From Bacteroidales bacterium (GTDB lineage Bacteria > Bacteroidota > Bacteroidia > Bacteroidales > UBA932), in NCBI GenBank assembly GCA_017502125.1, contig JAFVVN010000013.1, positions 1-50,326 of the forward strand: 50,326 nt of DNA, in the 5' to 3' direction. The translations under genes were made by a program, and so were the position numbers. Positions within the stretch are counted from its first letter, which is position 1. Every line of letters starts with the position of its first letter. Positions 26,442-48,173 of the stretch are shown piece after piece. A model generated the notes under the pieces. The model was not told the origin of the DNA. It ran no database searches and saw nothing but the letters and a program-made list of their open reading frames with translations.

Positions 26442-26472
26442 TTTGTAAAAACCGCGAATGTTCGTATCTTTA
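26442..26472 (+). promoter_or_regulatory. promoter of the glpABCT operon
   Basis: TTTG (26442-26445) is followed after exactly 19 bp by TATCTTTA (26465-26472), one base from the TAnnTTTG consensus. The ATG of glpA is 28 bp downstream. The imperfect -7 box may mean the promoter needs activation. Confidence 0.6.
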
Positions 26473-26500
26473 TCGGTTGTTTTAAAGAAATTTTAAAAAC

Positions 26501-28111
26501 ATGAAAGAATATGATGTAATAATTGTGGGAGGTGGTATCACGGGCGCCGGTACGGCAAGAGACTGTGCCATGCGTGGTCTCAAGACTCTTCTCATTGAGA
26601 GACATGACCTTACGGCAGGAGCTACCGGTCGAAATCATGGTCTCCTGCATAGTGGAGCCCGCTATGCGGTGACAGATCAGGAGTCTGCCGAGGAGTGTAT
26701 CAGGGAAAACATGACCTTGAGAAAGATAGCACGTCACTGCGTAGAGGAGACCGACGGTCTTTTCATAACCTTGCCGGAGGATGACCTTGCATTTCAGGAG
26801 ACTTTCATAGCTTCGTGCCTCAAGGCTGGAATCCGTGCGGAAGCCATAGATCCTGCAGAAGCCATAAGACTTGAACCTTCGGTCAACAAGTCCCTCATAG
26901 GTGCGGTAAGAGTCCCTGATGGAGCTGTCGATCCTTTCCGTCTGACAGTTGCAAATGTCTTTGATGCCCAGCTTCATGGTGCTGACCTTCTCACTTATCA
27001 CGAGGTCACTTCCATTGTCAAGGAAAACGGCAGGGTGGTCGGCGTCGAAGTCATGGATGCTCATACAAAGACCAGAAAGACTTTCAGAAGCCGTATCGTG
27101 ATCAATGCAGGAGGAATCTGGGGACATCATATTGCCGAACTTGCCGGAGCTACCGTGAATATGTTCCCTGCCAAGGGAGCGCTGCTCATCTTCGGTCATC
27201 GTGTGAACAACATGGTGATCAACCGCTGCCGCAAGCCGGCTGATGCAGATATTCTGGTTCCGGGTGACACCATATGCCTTATCGGAACCACTTCGAGCCG
27301 CTTGCCTTATGACCAGATTGATGACATGAAGGTCACTCCGGAAGAAGTTGACCTCCTCCTCCGTGAGGGTGCAAAGCTGGCTCCGGAGCTTGCAGATACA
27401 CGTATCCTCAGGGCATATGCCGGAGTACGTCCGCTGGTTGCAGCCGACAACGATCCTTCAGGCAGAAGCATCAGCCGCGGAATCGTATGTCTCGACCATG
27501 AGACAAGAGACGGCATTCCTGGCTTCATCACCATCACGGGCGGCAAGCTCATGACCTATCGTCTCATGGCGGAGTGGGCGACAGACCTTGCCTGCAAGAA
27601 GCTCGGAGTGGACAAGAAATGCCAGACTGCCGAAATATGTCTCCCTGGATCCGAGGAGGATGCAAGAACGGACAGGAAGACGGCAAAGACTTATGGTCTT
27701 GGAGCAAAGGCTGCGGAGGGCCGTCACGGAACGCGCAGTGCAGATATCCTCGTAGCAGACAAGAAGGACGAGTCGCTTGTCTGTGAGTGTGAGGGCGTTT
27801 CAGTCGCAGAGGTCAATTATGCCATCGAGACCCTTCAGTCAAAGAATATACTCAACCTTCGTCGACGCACCAGACTTGGCATGGGAACATGCCAGGGTGA
27901 ACTCTGTGCATGTCGTGCAGCAGGACTTCTCGCAAAGGCCAACGGATGTGCACGCAGGAGCGTCGAAGATCTTGCGGCATTCATGAACGAGAGGTGGAAG
28001 GGAATGTTCCCTGTCGCCTGGGGTGAAACCCTTGCCGAGGCTCAGTTCACATCATGGATATATGAAGGGGTATGCGGCCTGGACTCATTTGTTAAGAAGG
28101 AGGAGGAATAG
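26501..28111 (+). CDS. glpA: anaerobic glycerol-3-phosphate dehydrogenase subunit A
   Basis: Flavoprotein subunit that oxidises glycerol-3-phosphate to dihydroxyacetone phosphate and passes electrons through GlpC to menaquinone. The FAD-binding motif is at the N-terminus (VIIVGGGITGAGTARDCAMRG), and GRNHGLLHSGARYAV is typical of the GlpA/GlpD family. The C-terminal 100 residues carry the [2Fe-2S]-binding BFD-like domain with the CEC and GTCQGELCACR cysteines. This feature separates GlpA from aerobic GlpD. The 536-residue length fits. It begins the glpA-glpB-glpC-glpT run; glpB starts 3 bp after its stop. Confidence 0.95.
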   Translation: MKEYDVIIVGGGITGAGTARDCAMRGLKTLLIERHDLTAGATGRNHGLLHSGARYAVTDQESAEECIRENMTLRKIARHCVEETDGLFITLPEDDLAFQETFIASCLKAGIRAEAIDPAEAIRLEPSVNKSLIGAVRVPDGAVDPFRLTVANVFDAQLHGADLLTYHEVTSIVKENGRVVGVEVMDAHTKTRKTFRSRIVINAGGIWGHHIAELAGATVNMFPAKGALLIFGHRVNNMVINRCRKPADADILVPGDTICLIGTTSSRLPYDQIDDMKVTPEEVDLLLREGAKLAPELADTRILRAYAGVRPLVAADNDPSGRSISRGIVCLDHETRDGIPGFITITGGKLMTYRLMAEWATDLACKKLGVDKKCQTAEICLPGSEEDARTDRKTAKTYGLGAKAAEGRHGTRSADILVADKKDESLVCECEGVSVAEVNYAIETLQSKNILNLRRRTRLGMGTCQGELCACRAAGLLAKANGCARRSVEDLAAFMNERWKGMFPVAWGETLAEAQFTSWIYEGVCGLDSFVKKEEE

Positions 28112-28114
28112 GAT

Positions 28115-29341
28115 ATGAAATTCGATACTATAATAATAGGTGGCGGTCTTGCCGGACTCACGGCGGGAATCGACCTTTCACGTAAAGGACAGAGATGTCT
28201 GATCGTATCTTCCGGTCAGAGTGCCCTGCATTTCTTCTCGGGTTCTCTGGAACTTTGCAGTCTTGATGAGGATCCGTTCAAGGCCATCTCATCTCTTGGG
28301 GAAGATCATCCGTATACTAAAATCGGATATGACAATATTATAAGGTATAGCGAAGCGGTTCAGCCTTGGTTCAAGGAGGTCGGTATCGACTTTGTGGGAG
28401 AGCACGGGAAGAATCACTGGAGAATCACTCCGCTGGGCGGCTTCAAGAGGGCCTGGCTGACTCTGGATGAGTATGCCAACATCCCTTCTGACGGTACAAT
28501 GCCATGGAAGAAGGTCGCTCTTCTGAATATCGACGGTTTTCTGGATTTCCACACAAGCTACATTGCGGCGGGACTCGCCGAAAGGGGAGTGGAGACCATG
28601 GTCAAGGGAATATCGATGCCTGAACTTGACAGGCTTCGCGAGAATCCGACTGAAATGCGTTCGACCAACATCGCGAAGACATTTGCCGGTGACCTCATCG
28701 GAGCCCTTGCGGCAAGAATCAATGAATATGCGAAGGATGTGGATGCTGTCCTCATGCCTGCAGTCGTGGGACTGACCGGATCCACCGATGTGCACAGGCT
28801 GAAGGAGATGGTGGTGCGTCCGTTGCATTTCCTTCCGACCCTCCCTCCGTCTGTCCCAGGTATCAGGATCCAGATGATGCTCAAGAACCGTTTCCAGAAG
28901 CTTGGCGGCACATATATGCTTGGAGATTCAGTCGTTTCAGGTGAATTCGAGAACGGAAGACTGAAGTCAATATGCACCAATAATCATGGTGCTGTGAAGT
29001 TCGAGGCGGATAATTTCATCCTTGCAACCGGAAACTTCTTCAGCAAGGGTCTCACCTCGACAGTCGACGGTGTCCGCGAACCTATCTTCGGACTCGATGT
29101 CGATTCACTTGAGGTAAGGGCTGAATGGTATAGGAGAAATATGTTCGAGGCTCAGCCTTATATGAACTTCGGCGTTTCCACAGACGGATGTCTTCGTGCC
29201 ATGAAGGACCGGAAGCCTGTAGAGAATCTCTATGCAGCCGGTTCTGTCCTGTCAGGATGCAATTCTTTGAAGGAAGGCAGCGGTGCAGGTGTGGCAATCA
29301 TTTCAGCACTTCATGTTTCAGAATCTATATTGAAGAAATGA
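28115..29341 (+). CDS. glpB: anaerobic glycerol-3-phosphate dehydrogenase subunit B
   Basis: Second subunit of the anaerobic enzyme, peripheral at the inner membrane and carrying a flavin (FMN in E. coli). The dinucleotide-binding N-terminus IIIGGGLAGLTAGIDLSRKG is clear, as is the C-terminal LYAAGSVLSGCNSLKEGSGAG. The 408-residue length is normal. It lies between glpA and glpC with gaps of 3 bp and 1 bp, so all three subunits should be made in equal amounts. Confidence 0.94.
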   Translation: MKFDTIIIGGGLAGLTAGIDLSRKGQRCLIVSSGQSALHFFSGSLELCSLDEDPFKAISSLGEDHPYTKIGYDNIIRYSEAVQPWFKEVGIDFVGEHGKNHWRITPLGGFKRAWLTLDEYANIPSDGTMPWKKVALLNIDGFLDFHTSYIAAGLAERGVETMVKGISMPELDRLRENPTEMRSTNIAKTFAGDLIGALAARINEYAKDVDAVLMPAVVGLTGSTDVHRLKEMVVRPLHFLPTLPPSVPGIRIQMMLKNRFQKLGGTYMLGDSVVSGEFENGRLKSICTNNHGAVKFEADNFILATGNFFSKGLTSTVDGVREPIFGLDVDSLEVRAEWYRRNMFEAQPYMNFGVSTDGCLRAMKDRKPVENLYAAGSVLSGCNSLKEGSGAGVAIISALHVSESILKK

Positions 29342-29342
29342 T

Positions 29343-30581
29343 ATGGAGAAGAATAAGATAGATACAAGTTTCGAGCAGTGCATGAAATGTACTGTCTGCA
29401 CGGTATATTGTCCTGTGGTGGCTGTGAATCCGAACTATCCCGGTCCTAAGCAGGCGGGTCCGGATGGAGAAAGATATCGTCTGAAGAACCCTCTGTTCTA
29501 TGACGAGGCTCTTGACCTCTGTCTCAACTGCAAGAGATGCGAGGTGGCATGCCCTTCAAATGTGAAGATCGGCGACATCATCCAGTCTGCACGTCTGAAA
29601 TACGGAAACAACAAGCCTAAGCTCCGCGACTATATACTTGCCAATACCGACATCATGGGATCGTTGGCCACTACCATGGCTCCTGTCGTGAACTTCACCC
29701 TCGGTCTCAAGCCTGTCAAGGCTGTCATGGATGGAGTCCTCGCGGTGGATCACCACAGGACTTTCCCTAAATATGCAGGTCAGAAGTTCGAGACCTGGTT
29801 CAAGAGGCATGCTCTCAAGAAGCAGGAGGCATACGAGCGTAAGGTCAGCTACTTCCATGGATGTTACGCTAACTATAACCATCCCAAGCTTGCCAAGGAT
29901 TTTGTCAAGATCATGAATGCCATCGGATATGGAGTCAATCTCCTCGAAAAGGAGAAATGCTGCGGCGTAGCCCTCATCTCGAACGGTTTCAAGGACCAGG
30001 CGACCAGGCAGGCAGAACTCAATCTCGGCAGCATCCGCAAGGCAGTGGCCCGTGGTGAGAAGGTCCTCACCACAAGTTCGACATGTACATTCACCATGCG
30101 TGATGAATATGAGCATATCCTCGGCCTTCATAATGAGGATGTACGTGACAGCATCAATCTTGCGACCAAGTTCATCTATGAACTCGTGGATGCCGGTCAG
30201 GTCAAGCTCGTGTTCAAGGACGATTACACCAGACGCATAGCATACCATACTCCATGTCATATGGAGAAACTCGGATGGGCGATCTATTCCACTTCGATGC
30301 TGAAGATGATTCCAGGAGTGGATTTCGTCATGCTTGATTCCCAGTGCTGCGGAATAGCAGGAACCTATGGTTTCAAGAAAGAACACTATAACGACTCTCA
30401 GAAGATCGGTCAGAACCTTTTCCGTCAGATCCATGACTATGCCGTGGATATGGTGGCGACAGACTGCGAGACCTGCAAATGGCAGATCGAGATGAGCGCC
30501 GGAGTGACAGTGGAAAACCCTATTTCAATAATAGCTGACGCACTCGATGTGGAAGCTACAATCAAAGCTAACCGAAAATAA
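29343..30581 (+). CDS. glpC: anaerobic glycerol-3-phosphate dehydrogenase subunit C
   Basis: Membrane-associated iron-sulfur subunit that links GlpAB to the quinone pool. Two [4Fe-4S] motifs are near the N-terminus (CMKCTVCTVYCP and CLNCKRCEVACP). Two cysteine-rich CCG domains follow, with the pairs CCGVALISNGF and CCGIAGTYGFKKEHY. The 412-residue length matches GlpC. The glpT ATG follows the stop by 2 bp. Confidence 0.95.
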   Translation: MEKNKIDTSFEQCMKCTVCTVYCPVVAVNPNYPGPKQAGPDGERYRLKNPLFYDEALDLCLNCKRCEVACPSNVKIGDIIQSARLKYGNNKPKLRDYILANTDIMGSLATTMAPVVNFTLGLKPVKAVMDGVLAVDHHRTFPKYAGQKFETWFKRHALKKQEAYERKVSYFHGCYANYNHPKLAKDFVKIMNAIGYGVNLLEKEKCCGVALISNGFKDQATRQAELNLGSIRKAVARGEKVLTTSSTCTFTMRDEYEHILGLHNEDVRDSINLATKFIYELVDAGQVKLVFKDDYTRRIAYHTPCHMEKLGWAIYSTSMLKMIPGVDFVMLDSQCCGIAGTYGFKKEHYNDSQKIGQNLFRQIHDYAVDMVATDCETCKWQIEMSAGVTVENPISIIADALDVEATIKANRK

Positions 30582-30583
30582 TA

Positions 30584-31966
30584 ATGAGTAAGTTTTTTGA
30601 CCCGCCTCAGGCGAAACCCCTTATTGCAAAGGAAAAGATAGACCGTGTCTTCAAGTCCATGAGATTCAAAGTCTTCATGGGATCTTTCCTCGGATATGCC
30701 GCATATTATCTCGTGCGCAAGAATCTCTCGTTGGCATCTGCCGACATGATTGCCGAGGGTCTGATAGACAAGCAGGGAGTCGGAATTGCAGCTTCTGCAG
30801 TATCCATAGCCTATGCATTCAGCAAGTTCATCATGGGAACACTCTCTGACCGTTCGGATGCCAGAAAGTTCCTCACAGTCGGCCTTGTGATCGCTTCACT
30901 TGTGATGATGGCAGTGGGCTTCCTCCCGTTCTCGGCGACCAACATGGCCATCAACGTGACCATGCTCTTTGTCATGATGCTTTTCGTGGGTATCCTCTCC
31001 GGAATGGGCTGGCCTCCATGCGGACGAATCATGGCATATTGGTTCTCGAATAATGAGCGAAGCTTCAAGATGTCCCTCTGGAACACCTCACACACAGTCG
31101 GTGCCGGAACCCTCGGCATCATCGCCATTCTGGGTGTGAGCCTGTTCGCCGATATGGGCATTTCGCAGACCTGGAGGGCCAACTTCATAGTTCCTTCTGC
31201 CTTTGCCCTTGCCATCGCCATCTTCTGCTGGTGGGCTTTGCGTGACACTCCTGAATCCTGCGGACTCCCGTCGGTTGCAGACTGGAGAAACGACCATTCA
31301 GGTGTCAAGACAAAGGAAAAGGTCGGTGAGAAGGTGCCTTTCAAGACACAGCTCTTCGACTATGTGCTCAAGAACAAGTGGATATGGATGATTGCCCTGG
31401 CCAACGCCTTTGTATATATGGTACGCTATGGCGTCGGTGACTGGTGTCCGACCTATCTTCAGGAAACTGGCATCATGACCTCGGCAGAGTGCAAGCTGGC
31501 TTTCTCCATCCATAATTATGTGGGAGCTGTGGGAACCATCGTCTGCGGATGGGTATCTGCGAAGTTCTTCAAGGGCAAGTGCGCTCCTCCTAACATCATC
31601 TTCATGAGTCTCGTCCTCATCGGCTGCATCATGTACTGGCAGGTTCCAGCCCTTGCTGCTGCCACAGGAATCGATGCAAAGGTGTGGGTATATGTAGCCC
31701 TCATCCTCATCGGATTCTGCATCTATGGACCGGTGGCCCTTGTCAGCATCCAGGCACTCAATCTTGTTCCTAAGAACGCTGCGGGAACAGCTGCAGGCTT
31801 CGTGGGTCTCTCCGGCTATCTCATCGGTGACTCTCTCCTTTCAAAGATCATCGTGGGTGGAATCGCTGACCAGAGCTGGAATGCCGCCAATTTCACGATG
31901 GTGATAGGTGCTGTCCTCGGAATCATCCTCTGCGCCCTGACCCTCAAGTCAGAGAAGCAGTCATAA
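30584..31966 (+). CDS. glpT: glycerol-3-phosphate transporter GlpT (MFS organophosphate:Pi antiporter)
   Basis: Inner-membrane transporter of 460 residues with about 12 hydrophobic segments. Members of the OPA family (GlpT, UhpT, PgtP) exchange organic phosphates for phosphate. Family features include FKVFMGSFLGYAAYYLVRKN at the first helix, with the phosphate-binding Arg, ALSKFIMGTLSDR-like YAFSKFIMGTLSDRSD, and the late ALNLVPKNAAGTAAGFVGL. The exact substrate is set by context: it is joined to glpABC, so glycerol-3-phosphate is the likely cargo. No glpK or glpF is nearby, so uptake as the phosphate ester appears to be the route. Confidence 0.92.
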   Translation: MSKFFDPPQAKPLIAKEKIDRVFKSMRFKVFMGSFLGYAAYYLVRKNLSLASADMIAEGLIDKQGVGIAASAVSIAYAFSKFIMGTLSDRSDARKFLTVGLVIASLVMMAVGFLPFSATNMAINVTMLFVMMLFVGILSGMGWPPCGRIMAYWFSNNERSFKMSLWNTSHTVGAGTLGIIAILGVSLFADMGISQTWRANFIVPSAFALAIAIFCWWALRDTPESCGLPSVADWRNDHSGVKTKEKVGEKVPFKTQLFDYVLKNKWIWMIALANAFVYMVRYGVGDWCPTYLQETGIMTSAECKLAFSIHNYVGAVGTIVCGWVSAKFFKGKCAPPNIIFMSLVLIGCIMYWQVPALAAATGIDAKVWVYVALILIGFCIYGPVALVSIQALNLVPKNAAGTAAGFVGLSGYLIGDSLLSKIIVGGIADQSWNAANFTMVIGAVLGIILCALTLKSEKQS

Positions 31967-31987
31967 TAATCCCTGAACTGACATGCT

Positions 31988-33928
31988 ATGAAAAAGATCG
32001 GATTCATACTTAATATCGTTGCATTGACCATTCTCGGCTCCATGTTCCTTTCATGCGAGAAGGAACCGGATGACGGAGGTGTCACTCGGGAAAAACTCGA
32101 ACTCCTGATCAGTCTTCCTGAATCTGTCTCAGGAGCTGCAGGTGATATCGTGTCGATAAAGTTCTATTCGGGTAAGGGCCCGCATAAAGGTGATTTTGTC
32201 GTTCTAAAGAAGTCCAAGGACGAGATTTTGACTGAGGTCATAAGCAGATCTGATGATGCCTTCAGCTTCAAGATCCCGTCTCAGCTTGTGAGTGGCAAAT
32301 ATGTCTTCAGCATCAGACGCGGAACCCAGACCAAGGCAATCGGAGAAATTACCTTTGATATAGAGAAACGCGTAGAAATCACTGAGAAGGAGGGATATAA
32401 CGTTTATGGACTGATTTCATGTGATGGAGTGGGCGTTCCCGGTGTGGTAGTCTCAGACGGAGTTGAGGTGTGCGTGACCGATGAGAACGGTCTGTACTAT
32501 CTGAAGTCAGATGAATATAATAGGTTGGTATTCATGTCGATACCAGCTGGTTATGAGGCTGAGTCAGAGGGTATCCTTCCAAATTTCCACAAGTCTCTCG
32601 ACGGTGATCCTAAAACCACCGAGAGAGCGGACTGGACATTGACGAAGGTCAATAATGCTGACCATGTCATGTATGTTCTTGGTGACATGCATCTGGCCAA
32701 GAGGACAAATGACATATCTCAGTTCGCCAATTTCACCGCAGATTTCAATGCACAGATCGCTGCGAACAAGTCTAAAAGACAGTATGCCCTGACCCTTGGT
32801 GATATGACATGGGACCTTTACTGGTACTCTAATGCATATGACCTCTACTCTTATCTTGAAACGATGAATTCGAGGGTCAGCGGTGTTCAGATCTTCCATA
32901 CCATCGGTAATCATGACCATGACATGATGGCGGAGGGAGACTTCAATACGGTCACTGCATTCAAGAAGAGGGTTGCTCCGACATATTATTCATTCAATAT
33001 AGGTAATGTCCATTATATTGTTCTGGACAATATCCTTTGTACCAATGTTGCCAAGGATGACGGAAGCGGAAGAAACTATAACTCAAGCCTGACTTCAGAA
33101 CAGATCACCTGGCTTACCAAGGACCTTTCATATGTAGACAAGTCCAAGACTCTCGTCATCACCATGCATGCCCAGATGTATGGCGAGACTGGAAAGCAGG
33201 CGATGTCTTATTGTTCTGAACTTGAAAATCTCTGCAAGGGCTACGAGACTCATGTGCTGAGTGCCCACACTCATGTGATATGGAACAATGACCTGACATC
33301 ATCCAAGGGAATAATGCACCATAACAGTGGTGCCATCTGCGGAACATGGTGGTGGACAGGATACTATACATCCGGACTCAATCTCTGCAAGGACGGTTCC
33401 CCAGCCGGATATTATGTCTACGAAATGACCGGCAATGATGTTAAATGGAGATTCAAGCCAACCGGAAAGGATTTCTCTCATGCCTTCCGTACATATGACA
33501 GGAATTCCATAGCACTTTCAGCGAAGAATTTCGCTCCATCAGCCAACAGCACTCATGCTGCGGCATTTGAGAAATCTGCCTCGCACTGGGTAGCTGCCGA
33601 TAAGAACAATTATGTGTATTTCAATGTGTTCGACTATGATCCATCCTGGACCATAGAGGTTTCGGAAAATGGTAAGACTCTCCAATGGGAGGTCGTGAAG
33701 GCGAAAGACCCTCTGCATCTTGTGGCTTATGAGGCGCAGAGACGTGACCGCAACTCAAGTCCGACATCAAGTTTCCTGTCGACCACGATAAACTCGCATC
33801 TTTTCCGCGTGAAGGCATCCTCGGCAACTTCGACTATAGACTTCAAGTTGACTGACAGGTTCGGTAATGTCTACACGGAGAGCATGAAACGTCCTAAAGA
33901 GTTTTCACTCAATATATATAACCGCTAA
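31988..33928 (+). CDS. calcineurin-type phosphoesterase lipoprotein
   Basis: Lipoprotein of 646 residues; the SPII lipobox ends at C23 (FLSC). The order is: an Ig-like N-terminal region, a MetallophosN-type beta domain (NVYGLISCDGVGVPGVVVSD, about residues 138-215), the metallophosphoesterase core, and a MetallophosC-like beta domain. Core metal ligands are visible as D233 in LGDMHL, GDMTWD, N308-H309-D310-H311 in GNHDHD, H in TMHAQMYG and H427/H429 in SAHTH (the usual GHTH has Ala here). The family hydrolyses phosphomono- and diesters. It is fused in transcription to glpT (21-bp gap) and precedes susC. Its paralog forms the N-terminal half of the 45927 protein. Confidence 0.9.
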   Translation: MKKIGFILNIVALTILGSMFLSCEKEPDDGGVTREKLELLISLPESVSGAAGDIVSIKFYSGKGPHKGDFVVLKKSKDEILTEVISRSDDAFSFKIPSQLVSGKYVFSIRRGTQTKAIGEITFDIEKRVEITEKEGYNVYGLISCDGVGVPGVVVSDGVEVCVTDENGLYYLKSDEYNRLVFMSIPAGYEAESEGILPNFHKSLDGDPKTTERADWTLTKVNNADHVMYVLGDMHLAKRTNDISQFANFTADFNAQIAANKSKRQYALTLGDMTWDLYWYSNAYDLYSYLETMNSRVSGVQIFHTIGNHDHDMMAEGDFNTVTAFKKRVAPTYYSFNIGNVHYIVLDNILCTNVAKDDGSGRNYNSSLTSEQITWLTKDLSYVDKSKTLVITMHAQMYGETGKQAMSYCSELENLCKGYETHVLSAHTHVIWNNDLTSSKGIMHHNSGAICGTWWWTGYYTSGLNLCKDGSPAGYYVYEMTGNDVKWRFKPTGKDFSHAFRTYDRNSIALSAKNFAPSANSTHAAAFEKSASHWVAADKNNYVYFNVFDYDPSWTIEVSENGKTLQWEVVKAKDPLHLVAYEAQRRDRNSSPTSSFLSTTINSHLFRVKASSATSTIDFKLTDRFGNVYTESMKRPKEFSLNIYNR

Positions 33929-33964
33929 TATATAATACAGCAATACTAACTAAATTTACTTTTT

Positions 33965-36900
33965 ATGAGATTATTGAAATCCTTCGCAGTCTCTCTTGCT
34001 TTAATGGTCGTCGGCGCTACTGCCTTCGCCCAGACCAGAGAACTGTCCGGAGTCGTGCTCGATGCGACTGATTTCCCTCTGGAAGGAGTGGCGGTCATCG
34101 TTGACGGAACGACAAACGGTGTAATGACATCAGGGGATGGTAGCTTCACTCTCAGAGTGCCGGCTAAAGATGTAGTCCTCAATGTTTCTTCTCTCGGTTA
34201 TGAAACCAAGATCATAACCGTTCCTGCAGCTCAGGACAACATCACAATCCATCTGGCAGAAGACAACATGATGCTGGAGGAGACTGTGGTCGTCGGTTAC
34301 GGTACCCAGAAGAAGGTCAACCTTACTGGTGCTGTCACTGCAGTTGATGAAAAAGCTATACAGGACCGTGTGTCTCCAAACCTCAGCAGCATGCTTCAAG
34401 GTGCTGTGCCGGGTCTTTCCATTTCGACATCAAGCGGTAACCCTGGTAGTACCGGAACATTGCAGATCCGTGGTACAGGTTCCATCAACGGTGGAAATCC
34501 TCTTGTGCTGATCGACGGTGTCGAAGGTGAGATGGACCGCGTGAACCCTAATGACGTCGAGTCTATTTCTGTCATCAAGGATGCTTCGGCGGCAGCTGTC
34601 TATGGTGCCCGTGCAGCATTCGGAGTCATTCTCATCACCACAAAGAAGGGTAATGAAGATGACGGTAATGCTGTTATCCGCTACAGCGGACGTTTCGGTT
34701 GGGAGGAACCTACCACTTCAACTGATTACGAGACTACAGGTTATTGGTCTGCTTACATCCACAACATGTTCTGGAAGGCTGATGACGGTGTATCACAGTA
34801 CATCAAGTACAATGATTACGATATGCAGCAGCTCCTTCTCCGTATCAACGACAAGACCGAGCATATTGACCGTCCATGGGTGACCATCCAGAACAGAAGC
34901 GGTAAGGATAAATATGTATATTATGGTAACACTGACTGGTGGCATGAGATGTTCAATGACCAGCACCCTGTTCAGCAGCATAATATTTCAATCAGCGGTG
35001 GAAACAAGAAGGTTAAATATTACCTTTCCGGAGCATACAACCAGCAGACCGGTATCATCAAGGTTCGTCCTGACCGGTTCGAGAAGTTCAACCTCCGTTC
35101 AAAGATTGATTTCAAGATCAATAAGTATATGAGAATGAGCAACAATACCTCATTCTATAACTCTACCTATGACTATCCGGGAGTTTCAAATGTACAGAAT
35201 GCGATCGCTTATGCAGCGAACCACGGTCTGGCTTGCTTCACTCCAAAGAACCCTGACGGAACATGGGTGTACGGAACTGACTTCCTCGGATATAAGGTGG
35301 CCAACGGTCGTCATGCCATCTATGGTAACGACAAGAACATCAACCTTGACAGGAAGATGGACTTTGCCAACACTACTGAACTCAAGATAACTCCGATCAA
35401 GCAGTTGACAATCACTGCAAACTACACTTACAGGTTCCACCAGAACCGTAATACCAACAGAAGTACTGCATTGGTATATTCACAGTATCCTGGCGTTCTG
35501 GCAACATACACCGGTAAGGGAACAGCTGGTGAGGATTCACTCACTGAGGAAGTTGACAGCTGGGCATACAATGCAGCCAACGTCTTTGCAACATATGAGG
35601 ATACCTTCAAGAAGGATCACCACCTTACAGTGATGGCCGGAGGTAACCTTGAGTATTCATATAGAAAGGATCTTTCGACTACTGGTTATAATATTCTTAC
35701 TGAGGAACTTAACGACTTTGACCTTGTCGGACTTAACGGTGACGGAGTCAAGGAATTCCTCGCTTCCGGCGGTCAGACAGAATATGCTCTCCTCGGTTTC
35801 TTCGCTCGTGTGAACTATGACTACAAGGGCAGATACCTCTTTGAGGTTTCCGGACGTTATGACGGATCATCCAAGTTTGCAAAGGGAAGCCGTTGGGGTC
35901 TTTTCCCATCAGCTTCTGCAGGATGGCGTATCTCTGAGGAGAACTGGTTCGCTCCTGCTAAGAGCGTTGTGAACAACCTCAAGCTTCGTCTCTCATACGG
36001 TAGCCTTGGAAACCAGAATGTAACTGCATACAAGTTCATCCGTAAGATCCAGACCTACGATTTCGCCGGCTTCAGCTTTGGCGAGGGAAGCTCGACAGCA
36101 AGTTATACTTCACTCTCGGCTCCGAATGCTGGAGACCTTACATGGGAGACTTCACAGCAGTATAACATCGGTATTGACGCTGGCCTGTTCAAGGATAGAT
36201 TGACATTCACAGCTGAAGGATATATCCGTGATACCAAGGATATGCTCACCGACGGTGTCGCACTTCCAAGTGTCTATGGTGCATCTGAGCCTGACATGAA
36301 CGCTGCTGACCTCCGTACGACAGGTTACGAGCTTGCAATCAGCTGGAGAGATCAGTTCAGCCTTTTCGGAAAGCCTTTCGGATATAATGTCGGAGCCACT
36401 TTGTCTGACTTCAGGACTGTCATAACCAAGTATGACAATGAGGAGAAGACTTTCGCAAAGGACTATTATGTCGGAATGGAACTTGGTGAGATCTGGGGAT
36501 TTGAAATCGACGGTCTATTTCAGTCAGACGCAGAGGCTAAGGCTTATGCAGAGCAGGTTGACCTCAACTATATCAACAAGAGACTCTATGGCGGCTGGCT
36601 TGCCGGTGACCCAAGATATGTGGATCAGAAGACAGTCGACACTGATGGAGATGGTATTCCAGATGCTGGAGACGGTAAGATTTCAGTAGGTGCCAACAGC
36701 GTTGATGATCCGGGTGACCGCAAGATTCTCGGTAATTCTATCGCATCTCTTCAGTATGGTATCACAGCCGGATTTGACTATATGGGCTTCGACTTCTCTA
36801 TCTTCTTCCAGGGAACAGGAAACCACTATTGGTATCCAAATGCTGAGTCAATGGCATTCTGGGGTCCATATTCTCGTCCATACTGTACATTCCTCGATGA

Positions 36901-37282
36901 TAACTTCCTCGACAATGTATGGAGCGAGCAGAACCCTGACGCATATTTCCCACGTCCTCGTGCTTATTCTGCGTTCACTTCAGGAGCTGCCTTGAACAAT
37001 GTCAACAGCCGTTACCTCCAGAATCTTCGCTATCTGCGACTCAAGAACCTGTCTGTAGGTTATACAATACCTTACACCAAGAAGATAGGTATAGAGAAAC
37101 TCCGTATATATTTCTCAGGCGAGAACCTTGCTTACTGGTCTCCATTCAAGAAGCATACGACCCACATCGATCCTGAGGCTGCGTTTGACAGGGTTGACAG
37201 CAGTAATTCCCCAACCCGTTACAACAATGCATTCTACCCTTGGCAGAAGACATTCATGTTTGGAATTGACATCACTTTCTAA
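33965..37282 (+). CDS. SusC/RagA family TonB-linked outer-membrane transporter
   Basis: Outer-membrane channel of 1105 residues that imports an oligomer handed over by a SusD lipoprotein, powered by TonB. A signal peptide (MRLLKSFAVSLALMVVGATA) is followed by a CarboxypepD_reg-like domain (about 25-110), the SusC box (VVVGYGTQKKVNLTGAV), the plug (LSSMLQGAVPGLSIS, IRGTGSINGGNPLVLIDGV) and a 22-strand barrel ending FMFGIDITF. No STN domain is present, so signalling to an anti-sigma factor is not expected. It follows the phosphoesterase by 36 bp without a clear promoter or terminator, and the SusD gene follows by 23 bp. Substrate specificity cannot be read directly. Confidence 0.95.
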   Translation: MRLLKSFAVSLALMVVGATAFAQTRELSGVVLDATDFPLEGVAVIVDGTTNGVMTSGDGSFTLRVPAKDVVLNVSSLGYETKIITVPAAQDNITIHLAEDNMMLEETVVVGYGTQKKVNLTGAVTAVDEKAIQDRVSPNLSSMLQGAVPGLSISTSSGNPGSTGTLQIRGTGSINGGNPLVLIDGVEGEMDRVNPNDVESISVIKDASAAAVYGARAAFGVILITTKKGNEDDGNAVIRYSGRFGWEEPTTSTDYETTGYWSAYIHNMFWKADDGVSQYIKYNDYDMQQLLLRINDKTEHIDRPWVTIQNRSGKDKYVYYGNTDWWHEMFNDQHPVQQHNISISGGNKKVKYYLSGAYNQQTGIIKVRPDRFEKFNLRSKIDFKINKYMRMSNNTSFYNSTYDYPGVSNVQNAIAYAANHGLACFTPKNPDGTWVYGTDFLGYKVANGRHAIYGNDKNINLDRKMDFANTTELKITPIKQLTITANYTYRFHQNRNTNRSTALVYSQYPGVLATYTGKGTAGEDSLTEEVDSWAYNAANVFATYEDTFKKDHHLTVMAGGNLEYSYRKDLSTTGYNILTEELNDFDLVGLNGDGVKEFLASGGQTEYALLGFFARVNYDYKGRYLFEVSGRYDGSSKFAKGSRWGLFPSASAGWRISEENWFAPAKSVVNNLKLRLSYGSLGNQNVTAYKFIRKIQTYDFAGFSFGEGSSTASYTSLSAPNAGDLTWETSQQYNIGIDAGLFKDRLTFTAEGYIRDTKDMLTDGVALPSVYGASEPDMNAADLRTTGYELAISWRDQFSLFGKPFGYNVGATLSDFRTVITKYDNEEKTFAKDYYVGMELGEIWGFEIDGLFQSDAEAKAYAEQVDLNYINKRLYGGWLAGDPRYVDQKTVDTDGDGIPDAGDGKISVGANSVDDPGDRKILGNSIASLQYGITAGFDYMGFDFSIFFQGTGNHYWYPNAESMAFWGPYSRPYCTFLDDNFLDNVWSEQNPDAYFPRPRAYSAFTSGAALNNVNSRYLQNLRYLRLKNLSVGYTIPYTKKIGIEKLRIYFSGENLAYWSPFKKHTTHIDPEAAFDRVDSSNSPTRYNNAFYPWQKTFMFGIDITF

Positions 37283-37305
37283 ACTCTGTTCGAAATATAT
37301 TTGAT

Positions 37306-39144
37306 ATGAAAAATATGAAGAAATATTTGATAATAGCTCTTGCTGCGATCGCTTCATTCACTGCATGCGATTTTCTTGACAGAGGTCCGCTTTCAGACAT
37401 GACTGAGGAGATCTACTTCAGGACAGCAGAAGACTTCCAGCTGTTTACAAATCCTTTGTATAACAACCTGCTGGACAAGCACCCATATAACCATCAGAGT
37501 GACTATTACATCAAGCTGTCTCTCTCTAACCTTCTTCACGGAGGCTCATACAGGACAGTGCCTGCTTCAGGCGGTGGATGGTCTTGGACTGACCTCAGAC
37601 GTATCAATACTGTACTTTCAAGAATGGATACCTGCGAAGATGAGCAGGTGAGAGCTGAGTATGAGGCTCTTGCACGCTTCTTCAGGGCATTCTTCTATTA
37701 TGAGAAGGTAAAGCTTTTCGGTGATGTTCCTTGGATTGATGTCGAACTCAGTTCAGATTCAGAACAGCTTCAGGCTCCAAGAGATTCAAGAGAGTTCATC
37801 ATGCAGAAGATGCTTGATGATGTGAATTTCGCAATCGACAATCTTCCTGCAGGTGTTTCCACTTTCCGTGTGAACAGGTGGGCGGCATTGGCTCTCAAGT
37901 CTCAGTTCTGTCTTTTTGAAGGTACCTTCAGAAAGTATCATGCTCTTACCATAGATCCGGCTACAGCCGGAGTCGAGACCGTAAACGACTACAAGTTCTA
38001 CCTTGAGCAGGCCGCAGCTGCAGCTGAGGAAATCATCAACGAAGGTCCTTACAAGCTCTATTCTACAGGCAAGCCTGATCAGGACTACCGCATGCTCTTT
38101 GCTCAGGAGGAGGCAAGCAAGACTGAGTTCATTCTTGCTGTATATTACAACCACCCTGCAGGTATCTACAACAACTCGACAGCAATGTCCATCCTTCCTG
38201 CTCAGGGACGTCTTTCTGCAACAAGAAAGTTTGTCAACACTTATCTGATGGCGGATGGAACAAGCTATACCACTGCTAATCCGAACCATAAGACCACTTC
38301 TTACTATGATGAGTTCCAGAACAGAGACCCACGTCTCGCTCAGACACTCAGGGCTCCTGGTTACAAGCGTATAAATGGAACTGATGTCCTCGCACCGGAT
38401 CTCACATGTACATGTACAGGTTACCATATTGCAAAGTGGACCATGGCCGCAGATGCAAACGGTGGCGACTCTGACCGTGCAGACCGTTCATCAAATGACA
38501 CTCCTGTCTATCGTTATGCTGAGGTTCTCCTCAACTATGCGGAGGCTAAGGCTGAGCTCGGTCAGTTCGACCAGACTGTGGCAGATAAGACCATCAACCT
38601 TCTTCGTGACCGTGTAGGCATGGCCAGAATGAATGTAGGGTCTCTTACTGTTGACCCATATCTCACTGACCCTAAGACAGGTTACTCTAATCCGATCCTT
38701 CTTAAGGACCCTAATCTTGCACAGATTCTTGAAATCAGACGTGAGAGAGGTGTAGAGCTTGCACAGGAGGGCGACTTCAGATGGGAAGGCCTTCTGAGAT
38801 GGAAGGAGGGAAAGTGTGTCGAGCAGGATATGCACGGTATCTACTTCCCTGGTCCTGGTCAGTATGACCTTGACAACAATGGAACAGTTGACGTCTGGCT
38901 CTATGGCGCAAATGAGGCGCAGCCTACCGTTGATGCGACTAATCCAATGTTTGCAGCATGTGCAGTACTTAAAATCGGTACAGACATATTCTTGAGCCCG
39001 GACGGATATGTTGACCCTCAGCAGAAGAGTGAACACACTTTCGATGAGGCAAGGGATTATTTCTATCCTATTCCGATTGATGAGCGTTCATTGAATCAGA
39101 ATTTGACTCAGAACCCAGGTTGGGATGATGGTCTTGACTTTTAA
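37306..39144 (+). CDS. SusD/RagB family nutrient-binding outer-membrane lipoprotein
   Basis: Surface lipoprotein of 612 residues that caps the SusC channel. The lipobox ends at FTAC (Cys 22), followed by DFLDRGPLSDMTEEIYF, a typical SusD beginning. TPR-like helices follow (EALARFFRAFFYYEKVKLFGD, with DVPW), and the C-terminus has RRERGVELAQEGDFRWEGLLRW and the closing DERSLNQNLTQNPGW. The spacing to susC (23 bp) and to the next lipoprotein gene (11 bp) indicates one operon. A second Met at 37315 is an alternative start with the same signal peptide. Confidence 0.95.
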   Translation: MKNMKKYLIIALAAIASFTACDFLDRGPLSDMTEEIYFRTAEDFQLFTNPLYNNLLDKHPYNHQSDYYIKLSLSNLLHGGSYRTVPASGGGWSWTDLRRINTVLSRMDTCEDEQVRAEYEALARFFRAFFYYEKVKLFGDVPWIDVELSSDSEQLQAPRDSREFIMQKMLDDVNFAIDNLPAGVSTFRVNRWAALALKSQFCLFEGTFRKYHALTIDPATAGVETVNDYKFYLEQAAAAAEEIINEGPYKLYSTGKPDQDYRMLFAQEEASKTEFILAVYYNHPAGIYNNSTAMSILPAQGRLSATRKFVNTYLMADGTSYTTANPNHKTTSYYDEFQNRDPRLAQTLRAPGYKRINGTDVLAPDLTCTCTGYHIAKWTMAADANGGDSDRADRSSNDTPVYRYAEVLLNYAEAKAELGQFDQTVADKTINLLRDRVGMARMNVGSLTVDPYLTDPKTGYSNPILLKDPNLAQILEIRRERGVELAQEGDFRWEGLLRWKEGKCVEQDMHGIYFPGPGQYDLDNNGTVDVWLYGANEAQPTVDATNPMFAACAVLKIGTDIFLSPDGYVDPQQKSEHTFDEARDYFYPIPIDERSLNQNLTQNPGWDDGLDF

Positions 39145-39155
39145 TTGAATTTGTT

Positions 39156-42575: not shown

Positions 42576-42595
42576 TCACTTGCTTATTACGTTTA

Positions 42596-42630
42596 AAAGT
42601 CGGCACGGTTCAGTCCGTGTCGACTTTTTT
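42596..42630 (+). terminator. rho-independent terminator of the glp-SusCD operon
   Basis: A 13-bp stem with one G-U pair (42596-42608 with 42615-42627) and a 6-nt loop is followed by T6 (42625-42630). It lies 20 bp after the lipoprotein stop and is the first convincing terminator after glpA. Confidence 0.92.
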
Positions 42631-44653: not shown

Positions 44654-44684
44654 TTTGAACTATTTCGCTTTTTCGTTATATTTG
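44654..44684 (+). promoter_or_regulatory. promoter of the MBL-hydrolase / GDPD operon
   Basis: TTTG (44654-44657) and TATATTTG (44677-44684) lie exactly 19 bp apart. Transcription should start near 44690, which excludes the TTG at 44689 and favours the GTG at 44710 as the start codon of the following gene. Confidence 0.78.
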
Positions 44685-44709
44685 TAGATTGAACATTAAA
44701 ACTTTTGAC

Positions 44710-45921
44710 GTGAAACGTATACTACTTTCAATTGTTGGCATTGTGGCGCTTATGGCTGGCGCTTCTGCTCAGACTTATCTTCCTGAATGGCAGGAGGGCT
44801 ATATGGATATCCATACCATTGCAACCGGTAGGGGAGACGCTACTTTCATAGTTATGCCTGACGGTACGACCCTTATGATCGATGCCGGTGATAATGGCAA
44901 ACTGAAGGATCCTCAGCATCCTGACACCACAAAGAGAGCAGGAGAGTGGCAGGCTATCTATATGAAGAAGGTCATGGAACAGCTTCCTGACAAGAATAAT
45001 GTTGATTACGCGATGATCACGCATTTCCACGATGACCATATGGGTGCGGTGCGTCAGATGCTTCCCGGCGAAAACGGTTATGGACTTTCAGGAATCACTC
45101 TTGTGGGTGAGTTTGTCGGATTTGATAAGCTGATAGACCGGGCATACCCTGACTATGATTTTCCTTCACCTAAGAAGATTGCAAATGCGAACAAGGGCTT
45201 CATGGAGGAGTATCACAAGTTCACTGCCTATAAGATGTCAAAGGGAATGAAGATGGAGAAGTTCCGTGTCGGTGCCCTCAATCAGATAGCTATGGTCAAT
45301 AATCCCAAGAAGTACCGCAAGAACTTCGAGATCCGTAATCTGGCGGCAAACGGCGAGGTATGGACAGGAACTGGAGAGGAGGGCGCCAAACAATATAAGG
45401 GTGACCCTACGCTTTTTGATGAAAACGTCAACTCATGCGCCATCCGTATTACCTACGGAGATTTCAGATATTACAACGGAGGTGACCTCAGTGGCGGTAA
45501 CTATAAGATATACAAATCTTCTGAGAGAGATATGGAGACCCCTGTGGCAAAGGTGTGCGGAGAAGTCAATGTGATAAAGGCCAATCATCATGGATATTAT
45601 GACACATGCAACGGCTTCTTCATGAATGTGCTTTCTCCTGACGTGGTCGTGGTGGACGCACGAAGCAACAATCATCCTGTTCCTTCTACAATGGCGAGAA
45701 TGACTGACCCGATGGTCTGTCCTGAGCAGCCGGAATATTACATCACTGTGGACAAGGCACGTGAGAAACTCAGTGAGGAACTGTGGAACCACTTCAAGCC
45801 TTGGGGACATATAGTAGTTCGCGTGTATGAGGGCGGTGCAGAATATCAGGTATTTGTCCTGGATGCTGACAAGCTTGATACTCCGGTCATCTATAAGTCA
45901 GATATTAAGAAATCGAGATAA
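44710..45921 (+). CDS. secreted metallo-beta-lactamase-fold hydrolase
   Basis: Exported protein of about 403 residues. The signal peptide is clear when read from the GTG at 44710 (KRILLSIVGIVALMAGASAQ). The MBL metal motif is THFHDDH (H105, H107, D109, H110), preceded by GTTLMIDAGDN, with later GGDLSGG and KANHHGYYDTC ligand regions. This resembles the ComEC/Rec2-type MBL group in annotation, but there is no transport domain. Pneumococcal phosphorylcholine esterase also has an MBL fold, so a phosphodiesterase role is possible in this context, though this is inference. The 45927 gene starts 5 bp downstream, indicating co-expression. Confidence 0.85.
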   Translation: MKRILLSIVGIVALMAGASAQTYLPEWQEGYMDIHTIATGRGDATFIVMPDGTTLMIDAGDNGKLKDPQHPDTTKRAGEWQAIYMKKVMEQLPDKNNVDYAMITHFHDDHMGAVRQMLPGENGYGLSGITLVGEFVGFDKLIDRAYPDYDFPSPKKIANANKGFMEEYHKFTAYKMSKGMKMEKFRVGALNQIAMVNNPKKYRKNFEIRNLAANGEVWTGTGEEGAKQYKGDPTLFDENVNSCAIRITYGDFRYYNGGDLSGGNYKIYKSSERDMETPVAKVCGEVNVIKANHHGYYDTCNGFFMNVLSPDVVVVDARSNNHPVPSTMARMTDPMVCPEQPEYYITVDKAREKLSEELWNHFKPWGHIVVRVYEGGAEYQVFVLDADKLDTPVIYKSDIKKSR

Positions 45922-45926
45922 GTGAT

Positions 45927-48173
45927 ATGAGAAAGATTACAGCTGTTGTCATAGCCCTTCTGGTAGTTGCCGGCTATGCAGATGCGAGAAAGGTCAAGGG
46001 AAGTGTAGTTTCTGGTGATGAGAAACTTTCCGGAGTAATCGTCACAGACGGCAAGAACTTCACCCAGACCAAGAATAATGGAAAGTTCAGCTTTGAGATT
46101 GCTGATGACGCAGAGTTCGTGTACATCGTAACTCCTGCCGGTTACGCTGCAGATTGGAGCAGCGGAGTTCCTGCCTTCTATCAGAGGGCTGAGGGACAGG
46201 ATAAGTTCTGTTTTGACCTTTTGAAGACAGGTACTGACAAGGACTATAACATATTCGCTGTCGGAGACCCTCAGCCAAGAACTCTCAAGCATTTCCAGAT
46301 GTTTGCCGGTAAGCCTCTTGAAGTCCTTGCTGCAACTATAGAACCTGTGAAGTCCTCTTCGGTAGGAATTGCCTTAGGAGACATATGCTGGGATGAGCTT
46401 GAACTTCTGGGCAACTGGAAGAAGGAGATAGTCAGGGCTGGAATACCTTTCTATCCTGTTGTGGGCAATCATGACCACAATATACATGCTGAGGGAGATA
46501 TAAACGCCACTGCCATCTACAGGTCTGTAATGGGACCAGAAAACTATGCATTCTTCCTTGGCAATGACGTGGTCTTTGTGCTGGACAATATCATTTATGA
46601 CACAAACAAGGACTATGATGAGGGTTATGCGCCACATGTGGTGGATTGGGTAAGGGGAGTCATGGCTTATATCCCTGCAGACAAGCACATATTTGTCGCT
46701 CATCATTCACCTGTTATTGATAGGGGAACGAATAAGAAGATCATCGGAGCTGATGAAATGTTCGAGCTTTTCAAGAAGAATCAGGTGACCTTCCTTTCAG
46801 GTCATACCCATATAAGCAATTTCATCCGTCATGCCGAGAACATCACAGAGCATAATGTGGCTTGCATCTGCGGCACATGGTGGGATGTGGAATATGCTAC
46901 GGACGGCACCCCGCGCGGTTTCAAGGTGTTTACCAAGGAGGACGGCAAGCTGACATGGTACTATCAGGCGATTGATTTTCCTAAGGACTATCAGGTGGAG
47001 ATCCTCAAGCCCGGTCAGACCATCATGCATCCGAATTCCGTTGTTGCCAATATCTGGGACTGGAATCCGGGATGGAAGGTCGAGTGGTATGAGGATGGTG
47101 TGTACAAGGGAGTCATGGAGCGTGTCACTGACTATTCTCCGACACATGCTGTTGCCATGGTTGCCAAATATGCTCCGAAGGGCAAGGTCCCGCCAAAATT
47201 TCGTCAGACCAAGCTGAGCAGTCACTATTTTGCTGCGACCCCGAGCCAGTACGCCTCATATGTCACAGTCTGTGTGGAGGACAATTTCGGAAAGAAATGG
47301 GTCTATGATGTCAAGATGAATGAATATGTTGACGTTCAGGCACATAGAGGCGGTGCTGGACTGATGCCGGAGAATACCATCCAGGCCATGAAACATGCTC
47401 TTGATATGGGAGTGAACACTCTGGAGCTCGACCTGCAGTTGAGCAAGGACGGACTTGTGGTGGTATCGCATGACCCATATTTCCATTCAAGATATGCAAC
47501 CCGTCCTGATGGCACCCAGGTGAAGAAGGATGATCCTAAGGAGTATATCTACACCATGGATTATGAGCAGGTTGCAAGGTACGATGTCGGCAGCCGTGAG
47601 AGTGAGGTCTGGCCGGAAAAGGCCTGCTTCCCGGCAGTGAAGCCGCTGGCTGAAGATCTCATAGACTTCGTGGAGAACTATACTAAGGAGATGGGATACT
47701 CTCCTGTAAGGTACAATATCGAGGTCAAGTCCAAGCATGCGGAAGGCGAGGGTAAGGACTGGCCATACTATCACGACCTGGCAGATGCCTGTGTCAAGCT
47801 TCTTCTAAGCAAGCGCCTTGGTGACAGACTTGTTGTCCAGTGCTTCGACCATAGGGCCTTGAACCATATGCATGAGAAATTCCCGGAGCTTCACTATTCT
47901 TATCTTGTGGATGCCAAAGCTCCTGACTTTGATATATATATGGCTAAGCTGAACTTCACCCCGAAGTGGCTCAGCCCGCATCACAGCATAACTGATGAGA
48001 CTTTGGTGAAGAAATGCCGTGAGAAAGGAATGAAGATTGTTCCATGGACTGTGGATAAGCCGGAAGATATAAGGCGCATGATCGATCTGGGCGTGGATTC
48101 CATAATATCCAATTATCCGGACCGTGTCCTTGAGCAGACAAGAGGGTATGTTTACGTTTCATGGCCGGAATAG
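45927..48173 (+). CDS. calcineurin-type phosphoesterase fused to glycerophosphodiester phosphodiesterase
   Basis: Two-enzyme protein of 748 residues with an N-terminal signal peptide (MRKITAVVIALLVVAGYADA) and no lipobox. Residues about 22-100 form a MetallophosN-like beta domain and 105-325 the metallophosphoesterase core (D114 in VGDPQP, GDICWD, H182/D183/H184 in GNHDHN, H293/H295 in GHTH). Residues about 335-465 form a MetallophosC-like domain and about 470-745 a GDPD TIM barrel with H473-R474 in AHRGG, ELDLQL, VSHDPYF and the late PWTVDKPEDIRRM. GDPD splits glycerophosphodiesters into glycerol-3-phosphate and an alcohol. The phosphoesterase half could act on another bond of the same substrate. 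Both active sites look intact. The N-terminal half is a paralog of the 31988 lipoprotein. Confidence 0.92.
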   Translation: MRKITAVVIALLVVAGYADARKVKGSVVSGDEKLSGVIVTDGKNFTQTKNNGKFSFEIADDAEFVYIVTPAGYAADWSSGVPAFYQRAEGQDKFCFDLLKTGTDKDYNIFAVGDPQPRTLKHFQMFAGKPLEVLAATIEPVKSSSVGIALGDICWDELELLGNWKKEIVRAGIPFYPVVGNHDHNIHAEGDINATAIYRSVMGPENYAFFLGNDVVFVLDNIIYDTNKDYDEGYAPHVVDWVRGVMAYIPADKHIFVAHHSPVIDRGTNKKIIGADEMFELFKKNQVTFLSGHTHISNFIRHAENITEHNVACICGTWWDVEYATDGTPRGFKVFTKEDGKLTWYYQAIDFPKDYQVEILKPGQTIMHPNSVVANIWDWNPGWKVEWYEDGVYKGVMERVTDYSPTHAVAMVAKYAPKGKVPPKFRQTKLSSHYFAATPSQYASYVTVCVEDNFGKKWVYDVKMNEYVDVQAHRGGAGLMPENTIQAMKHALDMGVNTLELDLQLSKDGLVVVSHDPYFHSRYATRPDGTQVKKDDPKEYIYTMDYEQVARYDVGSRESEVWPEKACFPAVKPLAEDLIDFVENYTKEMGYSPVRYNIEVKSKHAEGEGKDWPYYHDLADACVKLLLSKRLGDRLVVQCFDHRALNHMHEKFPELHYSYLVDAKAPDFDIYMAKLNFTPKWLSPHHSITDETLVKKCREKGMKIVPWTVDKPEDIRRMIDLGVDSIISNYPDRVLEQTRGYVYVSWPE

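Follow-up and report, generated by a model that had tools for sequence, protein, structure and literature searches.

A glp-susCD locus in a Bacteroidales genome

Contig JAFVVN010000013.1 of a Bacteroidales bacterium (assembly GCA_017502125.1), a stretch of 50,326 nucleotides that we call the window, carries a locus in which genes for the transport and oxidation of glycerol-3-phosphate (G3P) are joined to a susCD pair. Eight genes on the plus strand, from 26501 to 42575, follow the order glpA-glpB-glpC-glpT-MPE-susC-susD-SLP, where MPE denotes a calcineurin-like phosphoesterase and SLP a surface lipoprotein (Table 1). A second unit encodes a hydrolase with the metallo-beta-lactamase-fold label (MBL) and a protein that fuses a phosphoesterase to a GDPD domain. 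Comparison with relatives reveals that this SusCD system, tied to glycerophosphodiesters, is recurrent; its most likely substrates are glycerol-phosphate polymers.

The intergenic gaps across the first unit are 3, 1, 2, 21, 36, 23, and 11 bases, and the eight genes are probably co-transcribed. The open reading frames (ORFs), the gaps, and the terminator fold all agree with an earlier sequence-only reading of this DNA, which described a run in a single direction with gaps of at most 36 bp that ends at a strong terminator. That reading also described the second unit, and family matches bear out the presence of both of its genes. Like a polysaccharide utilization locus (PUL), the first unit has adjacent susC and susD genes (gap of 23 bp), and the same unit holds SLP and the degradative MPE. 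Both SLP and the MPE lipoprotein are predicted to reside at the cell surface.

All three GlpABC subunits exceed their NCBIfam equivalog cut-offs. GlpT falls below the cut-off of TIGR00712 (448 versus 632.55 bits) and aligns with Escherichia coli GlpT (1pw4) at 376 bits over positions 4-458. In that alignment it keeps R45, K80, H165, and R269, which we take to be the substrate-site residues of the E. coli transporter. No match to a glycoside hydrolase (GH) family was found among the 13 ORFs scanned between 26501 and 50325. For the window, the Rfam search returned nothing at gathering cut-offs, and the tRNA search returned none.

Table 1. Features of the glp-susCD locus in window coordinates
Feature	Position	Strand	Basis
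Promoter-like site, Bacteroidota type, before glpA	26442..26472	+	TTTG-N19-TATCTTTA, by eye; one mismatch to consensus
glpA, anaerobic glycerol-3-phosphate dehydrogenase subunit A	26501..28111	+	TIGR03377, 791 bits (cut-off 553)
glpB, subunit B	28115..29341	+	TIGR03378, 433 bits (cut-off 174)
glpC, iron-sulfur subunit C	29343..30581	+	TIGR03379, 607 bits (cut-off 280)
glpT, glycerol-3-phosphate:phosphate antiporter-type MFS transporter	30584..31966	+	TIGR00712 best family, 448 bits
MPE lipoprotein, calcineurin-like phosphoesterase	31988..33928	+	MetallophosN, Metallophos, MetallophosC; lipobox LSC then CEKEPDDGG, by eye
susC, TonB-dependent outer-membrane transporter	33965..37282	+	TIGR04056, 886 bits
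susD, surface substrate-binding lipoprotein	37306..39144	+	SusD_RagB PF07980, 150 bits; lipobox by eye
SLP, surface lipoprotein of 1139 aa	39156..42575	+	BACON domains, duplicated C-terminal modules; lipobox ASC then CLNEEE, by eye
Intrinsic terminator	42595..42628	+	-22 kcal/mol, z -7.8; 0/200 shuffles as good
Promoter-like site, Bacteroidota type, before MBL gene	44654..44684	+	Exact TTTG-N19-TATATTTG match to consensus
MBL-fold hydrolase with signal peptide	44689..45921	+	Lactamase_B; start TTG 44689, likelier GTG 44710
MPE-GDPD fusion	45927..48173	+	MetallophosN, Metallophos, MetallophosC and GDPD (Pfam, 140 bits); signal peptide by eye

The same functions are joined repeatedly in relatives

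The order glpABC-glpT-MPE-susC is found in three other metagenome-assembled genomes (MAGs). In this arrangement A, glpABC-glpT-MPE-susCD-lipoprotein is seen in the window, L178, and L181, and L180 belongs here too and is cut in susC. Because the glpT-MPE junction recurs in other MAGs, an assembly artifact is unlikely. Arrangement B (L171, L172, and L173) runs glpT-MPE-susCD-lipoprotein-MBL-fusion with no adjoining glpABC, and arrangement C (L162 in G125) runs MPE-susCD-lipoprotein-GDPD-glpABC-glpT. Two further loci, both cut in glpA, read MPE-susCD-lipoprotein-GDPD-glpA (L234) and lipoprotein-glpA (L192). Arrangement D, glpABC-glpT-GDPD-MPE-susCD-lipoprotein, occurs in a Muribaculum sp. (L241) and a Porphyromonadaceae record (L221, GDPD by Pfam), with a GlpT that is just 32% identical.

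Other loci carry the dehydrogenase GlpD. Three Maribellus loci (L236, L244, and L250) form arrangement E, GlpD-glpT-GDPD-MPE-susCD-lipoprotein, where the GDPD is recognized by Pfam in L236 and by a weak 64-bit match in the other two. In arrangement F, found in Proteiniphilum UBA5384 (L242), in L232, and in the one-contig genome G374, GlpD-glpT accompanies MPE and a SusCD pair of another type; in G374 a GlpD-type dehydrogenase lies ahead of glpT-MPE-susCD, and no GDPD is labeled in these three loci. In arrangement G, from Arenibacter certesii (L248), the order is GlpD-FGGY kinase-MIP-type facilitator-susCD-MPE-GDPD, the facilitator being identified by eye from its NPA motifs. In addition, glpC, GDPD, and glpT occur together in 10 genomes with no susC among the matches listed. 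Across lineages, the GlpT-like proteins joined to MPE-SusCD range from 31% to 93% identity. MAGs from the hind gut of goats, deer, and water buffalo supply the eight best named loci, and Candidatus Cryptobacteroides species were also matched.

The case for a single pathway rests chiefly on this recurrence, in which the same functions come together again and again, in varying order and in several lineages. The genes probably form one glycerophosphodiester pathway that ends in G3P. The sequence-only reading had proposed glycerophosphodiester utilization, and that pathway is upheld, recurring in varied orders and with varied G3P dehydrogenases (G3PDHs), but glpABC lies apart from susCD in most relatives.

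Several loci show further peculiarities. A short GlpB lies between glpA and glpC in L040, L042, L043, L044, L045, and L162, and its match to the normal protein is confined to the C-terminal third (about 120-160 residues; the L162 ORF at 13224-13772 encodes 182 aa). No regulator is seen directly beside the locus in the window. Just upstream of glpT in other loci are a LacI-family regulator (L126, L127, and L172) and/or a PfkB kinase (L107, L126, and L127), and a hybrid two-component regulator is divergent from MPE-susCD in L166. A sulfatase-family gene follows or lies within the GlpD-glpT-MPE-susCD locus in L236 (18694-20454, Maribellus sp. YY47) and L232 (4453-6231, Prado082). The sulfatase superfamily includes phosphoglycerol transferases.

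Linkage and co-occurrence across genomes

We surveyed 151 genomes of the window's genus, with cut-offs of E<=1e-90 for MPE and 1e-60 for glpT, and counted genes as linked when they lay within 15 kb. MPE is present in 68 genomes, glpT in 96, and glpC in 106. Among genomes that bear MPE, 26 of the 65 glpT copies are linked to it, compared with at most 2.7 expected when genomes are taken as 1.1 Mb (p 2.5e-19, with genomes treated as independent although they are not). Genome content follows the same trend, in that glpT is carried by 58 of 68 genomes with MPE versus 38 of 83 without it. Where a full-length fusion is present, glpT accompanies it in 26/27 genomes and MPE in 24/27. Chance adjacency was rejected on the grounds of glpT-MPE linkage and genome co-occurrence. 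Among the susC matches listed, the best 50 include 44 linked to MPE, 18 to glpT, and 11 to a full-length fusion by this 15-kb measure; for the best 68, the corresponding numbers are 46, 18, and 11, with 4 linked to glpC.

Conserved co-location of the Glp genes with susCD and GDPD, which the sequence-only reading had put forward as a check, holds in part. The groupings glpT-MPE-susCD and MPE-GDPD fusion stay linked, whereas glpC is within 15 kb of susC (among the matches listed) in only 4/106 copies and of MPE in 6/106, counts that contig ends lower. Separation of Glp genes from susCD in relatives was an outcome that the sequence-only reading had itself set against its proposal, and for glpABC this outcome is observed in most relatives. 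We rejected glpABC as the conserved core, since glpC is seldom near susC; glpABC is the mobile partner of the locus.

A second comparison concerned labels within about 10 kb of 80 named MPE loci, some of which end at contig ends. In 72 of them, susC comes next after MPE in the same orientation. As a control we used 20 further SusC loci from the same genus, a non-random set made up of the lowest-scoring among the susC matches listed, with one row beside MPE left out and a contig with two susC genes counted once; one of the 20 contains a weak MPE match (102 bits). G3PDH is near 13/80 MPE loci versus 0/20 controls (Fisher p 0.044), GDPD near 16/80 versus 0/20 (Fisher p 0.020), and glpT at 180 bits near 36/80 versus 2/20 (Fisher p 0.0027). 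The GDPD figure is a domain count; the label count of 25/80 includes proteins that match the MPE half of the fusion alone, and the GDPD of L236 lies below the cut of the domain count, yet is detected by Pfam. A tree built from 81 MPE proteins requires at least 10 switches between presence and absence for the G3P dehydrogenase, at least 18 for glpT, and at least 13 for GDPD, numbers that contig-end cuts inflate.

Predicted enzymes and the second unit

Residues D233, H235, G271-D272, G307-N308-H309-D310, H394, H427, and H429 of MPE are invariant in 41 sequences and include those of the metal site, so the di-metal site looks intact. Profile comparison places purple acid phosphatases as the solved relatives of MPE (best 7e-7). 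No PhoD-family domain was matched in MPE, where only MetallophosN, Metallophos, and MetallophosC were found at E 0.001. The MPE lipoprotein is homologous to the MPE half of the fusion (hhalign 1.2e-69), which in 11 fusions has D114-x-Q116 in place of the D-x-H of MPE. In the GDPD half, whose nearest solved relative is 3ch0 (1e-53), residues H473, R474, E500, D502, H515, E599, and K601 are invariant in 11 sequences, and all of these except K601 are presumably catalytic.

The best solved relative of the MBL hydrolase is CbpE (1wra), a teichoic acid phosphorylcholine esterase, with a profile E of 1.9e-8. The match spans residues 34-119 alone, the metal-site part; there is no full-length match to CbpE, and no choline-binding repeats were matched, Lactamase_B being the sole Pfam family at E 0.001. 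This hydrolase is labeled only in near relatives of the window, namely L106, L124, L160, and 8/80 named loci. By eye, the signal sequences of both the MBL hydrolase and the fusion are of the signal peptidase I type.

The promoter-like sites at 26442 and 44654 were judged against TTTG-N19-21-TAnnTTTG, which we take to be the Bacteroidota consensus. The window has two exact matches versus 0.24 expected, and at least two were found in 4/100 shuffles. The two units are separated by a PDDEXK_2 transposase gene (43231-44196). In relatives, the fusion lies on the same strand 170-208 bp after the lipoprotein gene (L107 and L130) or 5 bp after MBL (L106), and for this reason the split into two units looks secondary. 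A DUF4831 gene (48212-49276) begins 38 bp after the fusion.

Other observations relate to these genes and their surroundings. The transposase gene is served by a separate promoter-like site at 43134, again an exact match to the Bacteroidota type, and downstream of the gene a stretch at 44260-44425 holds tandem copies of 'ggactggagcagg'. A second, weak PDDEXK_2 transposase homolog (28%) lies at 10901-11800. The C terminus of SLP consists of two near-identical modules of ~200 residues each, an internal duplication at about 41385-42575. In L160 (G153, 6385-9009), MBL is followed by a 466-residue MPE that lacks the GDPD half, which suggests fusion or loss within the clade. Finally, the grpE-dnaJ site occupied in L106, L124, L133, L171, L172, and others, some with an ABC-F gene, has the appearance of a conserved position in the chromosome at which the cargo varies.

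Candidate substrates and alternative explanations

We consider that the locus is probably a SusCD-type utilization locus for a glycerol-phosphate polymer. SusD and SLP would hold the polymer at the surface, where the MPE lipoprotein may cut it inside the chain, and TonB would power import of the pieces through SusC. Once these are in the periplasm, substituents or phosphoesters may be trimmed by the MBL hydrolase and by the phosphoesterase half of the fusion, and the GDPD half, judging from its family, would free G3P from the ends. By their family functions, GlpT would then take up G3P in exchange for phosphate, and GlpABC would oxidize it to dihydroxyacetone phosphate and pass the electrons to quinone. 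The protein locations, the cut positions, and the identity of the polymer in this scheme are all deduced from sequence.

Of the two types of substrate named in the sequence-only reading, teichoic-acid-like polymers appear to fit better than phospholipid head groups. SusCD pairs normally import oligomers. The presence of SusCD, the GH31 and GH89 genes of relatives, and the resemblance of MBL to CbpE together favor a glycosylated polymer. GH31 lies between the lipoprotein and fusion genes in G126 and G068, the latter with GH89 as well, and in L200 it is located downstream of the fusion in the same orientation; GH38 (G080) and GH78 (G090 and G079) lie beside glpT. The best solved relatives of the GH31 protein are deposited as alpha-xylosidase (7wj9). 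The statement of the sequence-only reading that the locus targets such substrates instead of a polysaccharide and encodes no glycoside hydrolase is true of the window, but a minority of relatives have GH31, GH89, GH38, or GH78 genes within or next to the same unit. Glycosidases in that minority hint at a glycosylated polymer.

A study of Bacillus subtilis bears on such enzymes (PMC7086022). There, the exo-acting GlpQ halts at glycosylated or alanylated glycerol phosphate, whereas the endo-acting PhoD cleaves glycosylated polymer; the substituent is alpha-glucose in wall teichoic acid and GlcNAc in lipoteichoic acid. Breakdown of a glycosylated glycerol-phosphate polymer would demand a set of enzymes similar to that of the extended locus. 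A glycosylated poly(glycerol phosphate), such as teichoic acid, is therefore a tenable identity for the substrate, one that we would stop just short of calling probable; our estimate is held down because few loci carry glycosidases. Homologs of the four glycosidases occur in 4/80 named loci (one being a 25% GH78 match) and in 5/58 genus loci (L127, L129, L133, L140, and L141) whose contigs are partly shared with the named set, and since these counts cover homologs of four proteins, many unlabeled ORFs of the 80 named loci fall outside the scan. Also unfavorable are the facts that the glycosidases of relatives belong to different families, some of which may be mere neighbors, and that, in the same source, GlpQ-type enzymes yield sn-glycerol-3-phosphate from wall teichoic acid and not from intact lipoteichoic acid.

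One alternative is an ordinary MPE-SusCD glycan locus that happens to sit beside housekeeping glp genes, a neighborhood effect that we regard as very improbable. The points in its favor also weigh against the proposed pathway. Besides the fact that glpABC is mostly located elsewhere, 33/80 named MPE loci have no glpT, G3PDH, or GDPD/fusion label, which implies that the MPE-susCD core extends beyond the loci with glp partners. At a loose cut of 60 bits, glpT-like MFS genes are near 37/80 MPE loci versus 6/20 other SusC loci, an excess that is not significant (p 0.14). The GrpE label appears in 22/80 named loci, and because the locus often adjoins grpE-dnaJ, the linkage partly reflects shared descent. 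Other facts tell against the proposed pathway itself. MPE is rare in the order, being found in 7/393 genomes at 1e-70, of which two belong to the window's genus and one to its family. The 'glpT' of G125 scores higher with the PgtP subfamily TIGR00881 (301 bits) than with GlpT (282 bits), both below cut-off, and GlpD of G374 is below its cut-off (290 versus 360). Nevertheless, a neighborhood effect does not readily explain why, in separate lineages and in varied orders and strands, the same MPE-SusCD is joined to distant dehydrogenases (GlpABC in some, GlpD in others) and to GlpT-like proteins so divergent in identity, and genome co-occurrence persists when the genes are unlinked.

Two other explanations concern the nature of the substrate. 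The locus might scavenge phosphorus from glycerophosphocholine, -ethanolamine, or -inositol released by membrane turnover, in the manner of the PusCD systems of Flavobacterium, with G3P as a source of both phosphorus and carbon. GDPD, GlpT, and G3PDH make up the classical head-group route, although such small molecules should need no SusCD pair, and two extra phosphoesterases, the glycosidases of some relatives, and a CbpE-like MBL would be superfluous. PusCD loci do pair SusCD with phosphodiesterases, and in the available text the authors propose lipid head groups and nucleic acids as substrates (PMC8115612). On balance, we judge this explanation unlikely; head groups as the main substrate are disfavored by SusCD, the glycosidases of relatives, and the MBL relative, and are retained as a rival. 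Somewhat unlikely, in our estimation, is a phosphodiester glycan in a wider sense, for example, a capsule or exopolysaccharide with glycerol-phosphate branches, or GlcNAc-1-phosphodiester or mannosyl-phosphate glycans, from which G3P would be one product among others. Other MPE loci encode the phosphodiester glycosidase NAGPA (L161 in G153, L167 in G359, and L170 in G506), accompanied by endo/exonuclease-phosphatase (L161) or alkaline phosphatase (L167) genes, and the GH38 and GH78 genes that adjoin glpT would suit such a glycan as well. However, over the 18-20 kb read, the NAGPA loci are devoid of glp genes, and wherever such genes do occur, the partners that recur are GDPD and G3PDH. As a separate matter, the NAGPA-bearing loci are perhaps a sister system for sugar-1-phosphodiesters.

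Returning to the glycerol-phosphate polymer, we offer a fuller picture more tentatively still than the identity of the substrate. Loci of this kind, scattered through Bacteroidota, might eat the teichoic acids of other bacteria. A single inducible unit would encode everything needed to capture the polymer at the surface, cleave it internally, import the pieces through SusCD, strip off sugar and phosphocholine substituents, free sn-glycerol-3-phosphate from the ends, and oxidize it by respiration.

Relation to known systems and biological implications

The glp regulon of E. coli (glpTQ and glpABC) likewise places GDPD, GlpT, and GlpABC in one pathway but is without TonB-driven outer-membrane import or surface proteins. 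With classical polysaccharide utilization loci, the window locus shares the layout of susC, susD, surface lipoprotein, and enzyme, and it differs in having no glycoside hydrolase match and in yielding a phosphate ester as its product. The nearest described system, as far as the available text of PMC8115612 shows, is PusCD of Flavobacterium, where SusCD is also clustered with phosphodiesterases or phosphatases instead of carbohydrate-active enzymes (CAZymes). PusCD is defined there by low-phosphate induction (PUSII with PhoA1, PUSIV with phoBR), and its main text, as available, holds no word starting with 'glpT' or 'glycerol'. In contrast, the window locus has G3P transport and oxidation within the unit, which points to carbon and energy use.

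PhoD and GlpQ of B. subtilis, as described in the available portions of PMC7086022, combine an endo phosphodiesterase with an exo GDPD on a glycerol-phosphate polymer, a likeness that extends to our locus insofar as its endo step is predicted correctly. They serve self-turnover in a Gram-positive organism, whereas the MPE of the window matched MetallophosN/C and no PhoD family, and is joined to SusCD import. A lead in a model organism is provided by Bacteroides thetaiotaomicron, known to us from table rows alone, in which BT4724-25 (TonB receptor and SusD) are numbered near BT4727 (GDPD), giving the set BT4724-BT4727 (PMC10434189). The available part of PMC8812569 holds no Glp link. We found no description of SusCD joined to Glp genes among the papers listed by our literature searches, a weak negative given mainly open-access coverage and lists of at most 12-20 titles from up to 915 hits.

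CAZymes are the usual guide in assigning SusCD loci, and a class that lacks them, such as that in the window, would be missed. Cultured carriers, Maribellus luteus and Arenibacter certesii, make our reading testable. Glycerol-phosphate polymers are a large pool, and no SusCD route for them was found among the papers listed in the literature searched. If the reading is true, gut Bacteroidota would feed on such polymers of their Gram-positive neighbors and so obtain carbon, energy, and phosphate.

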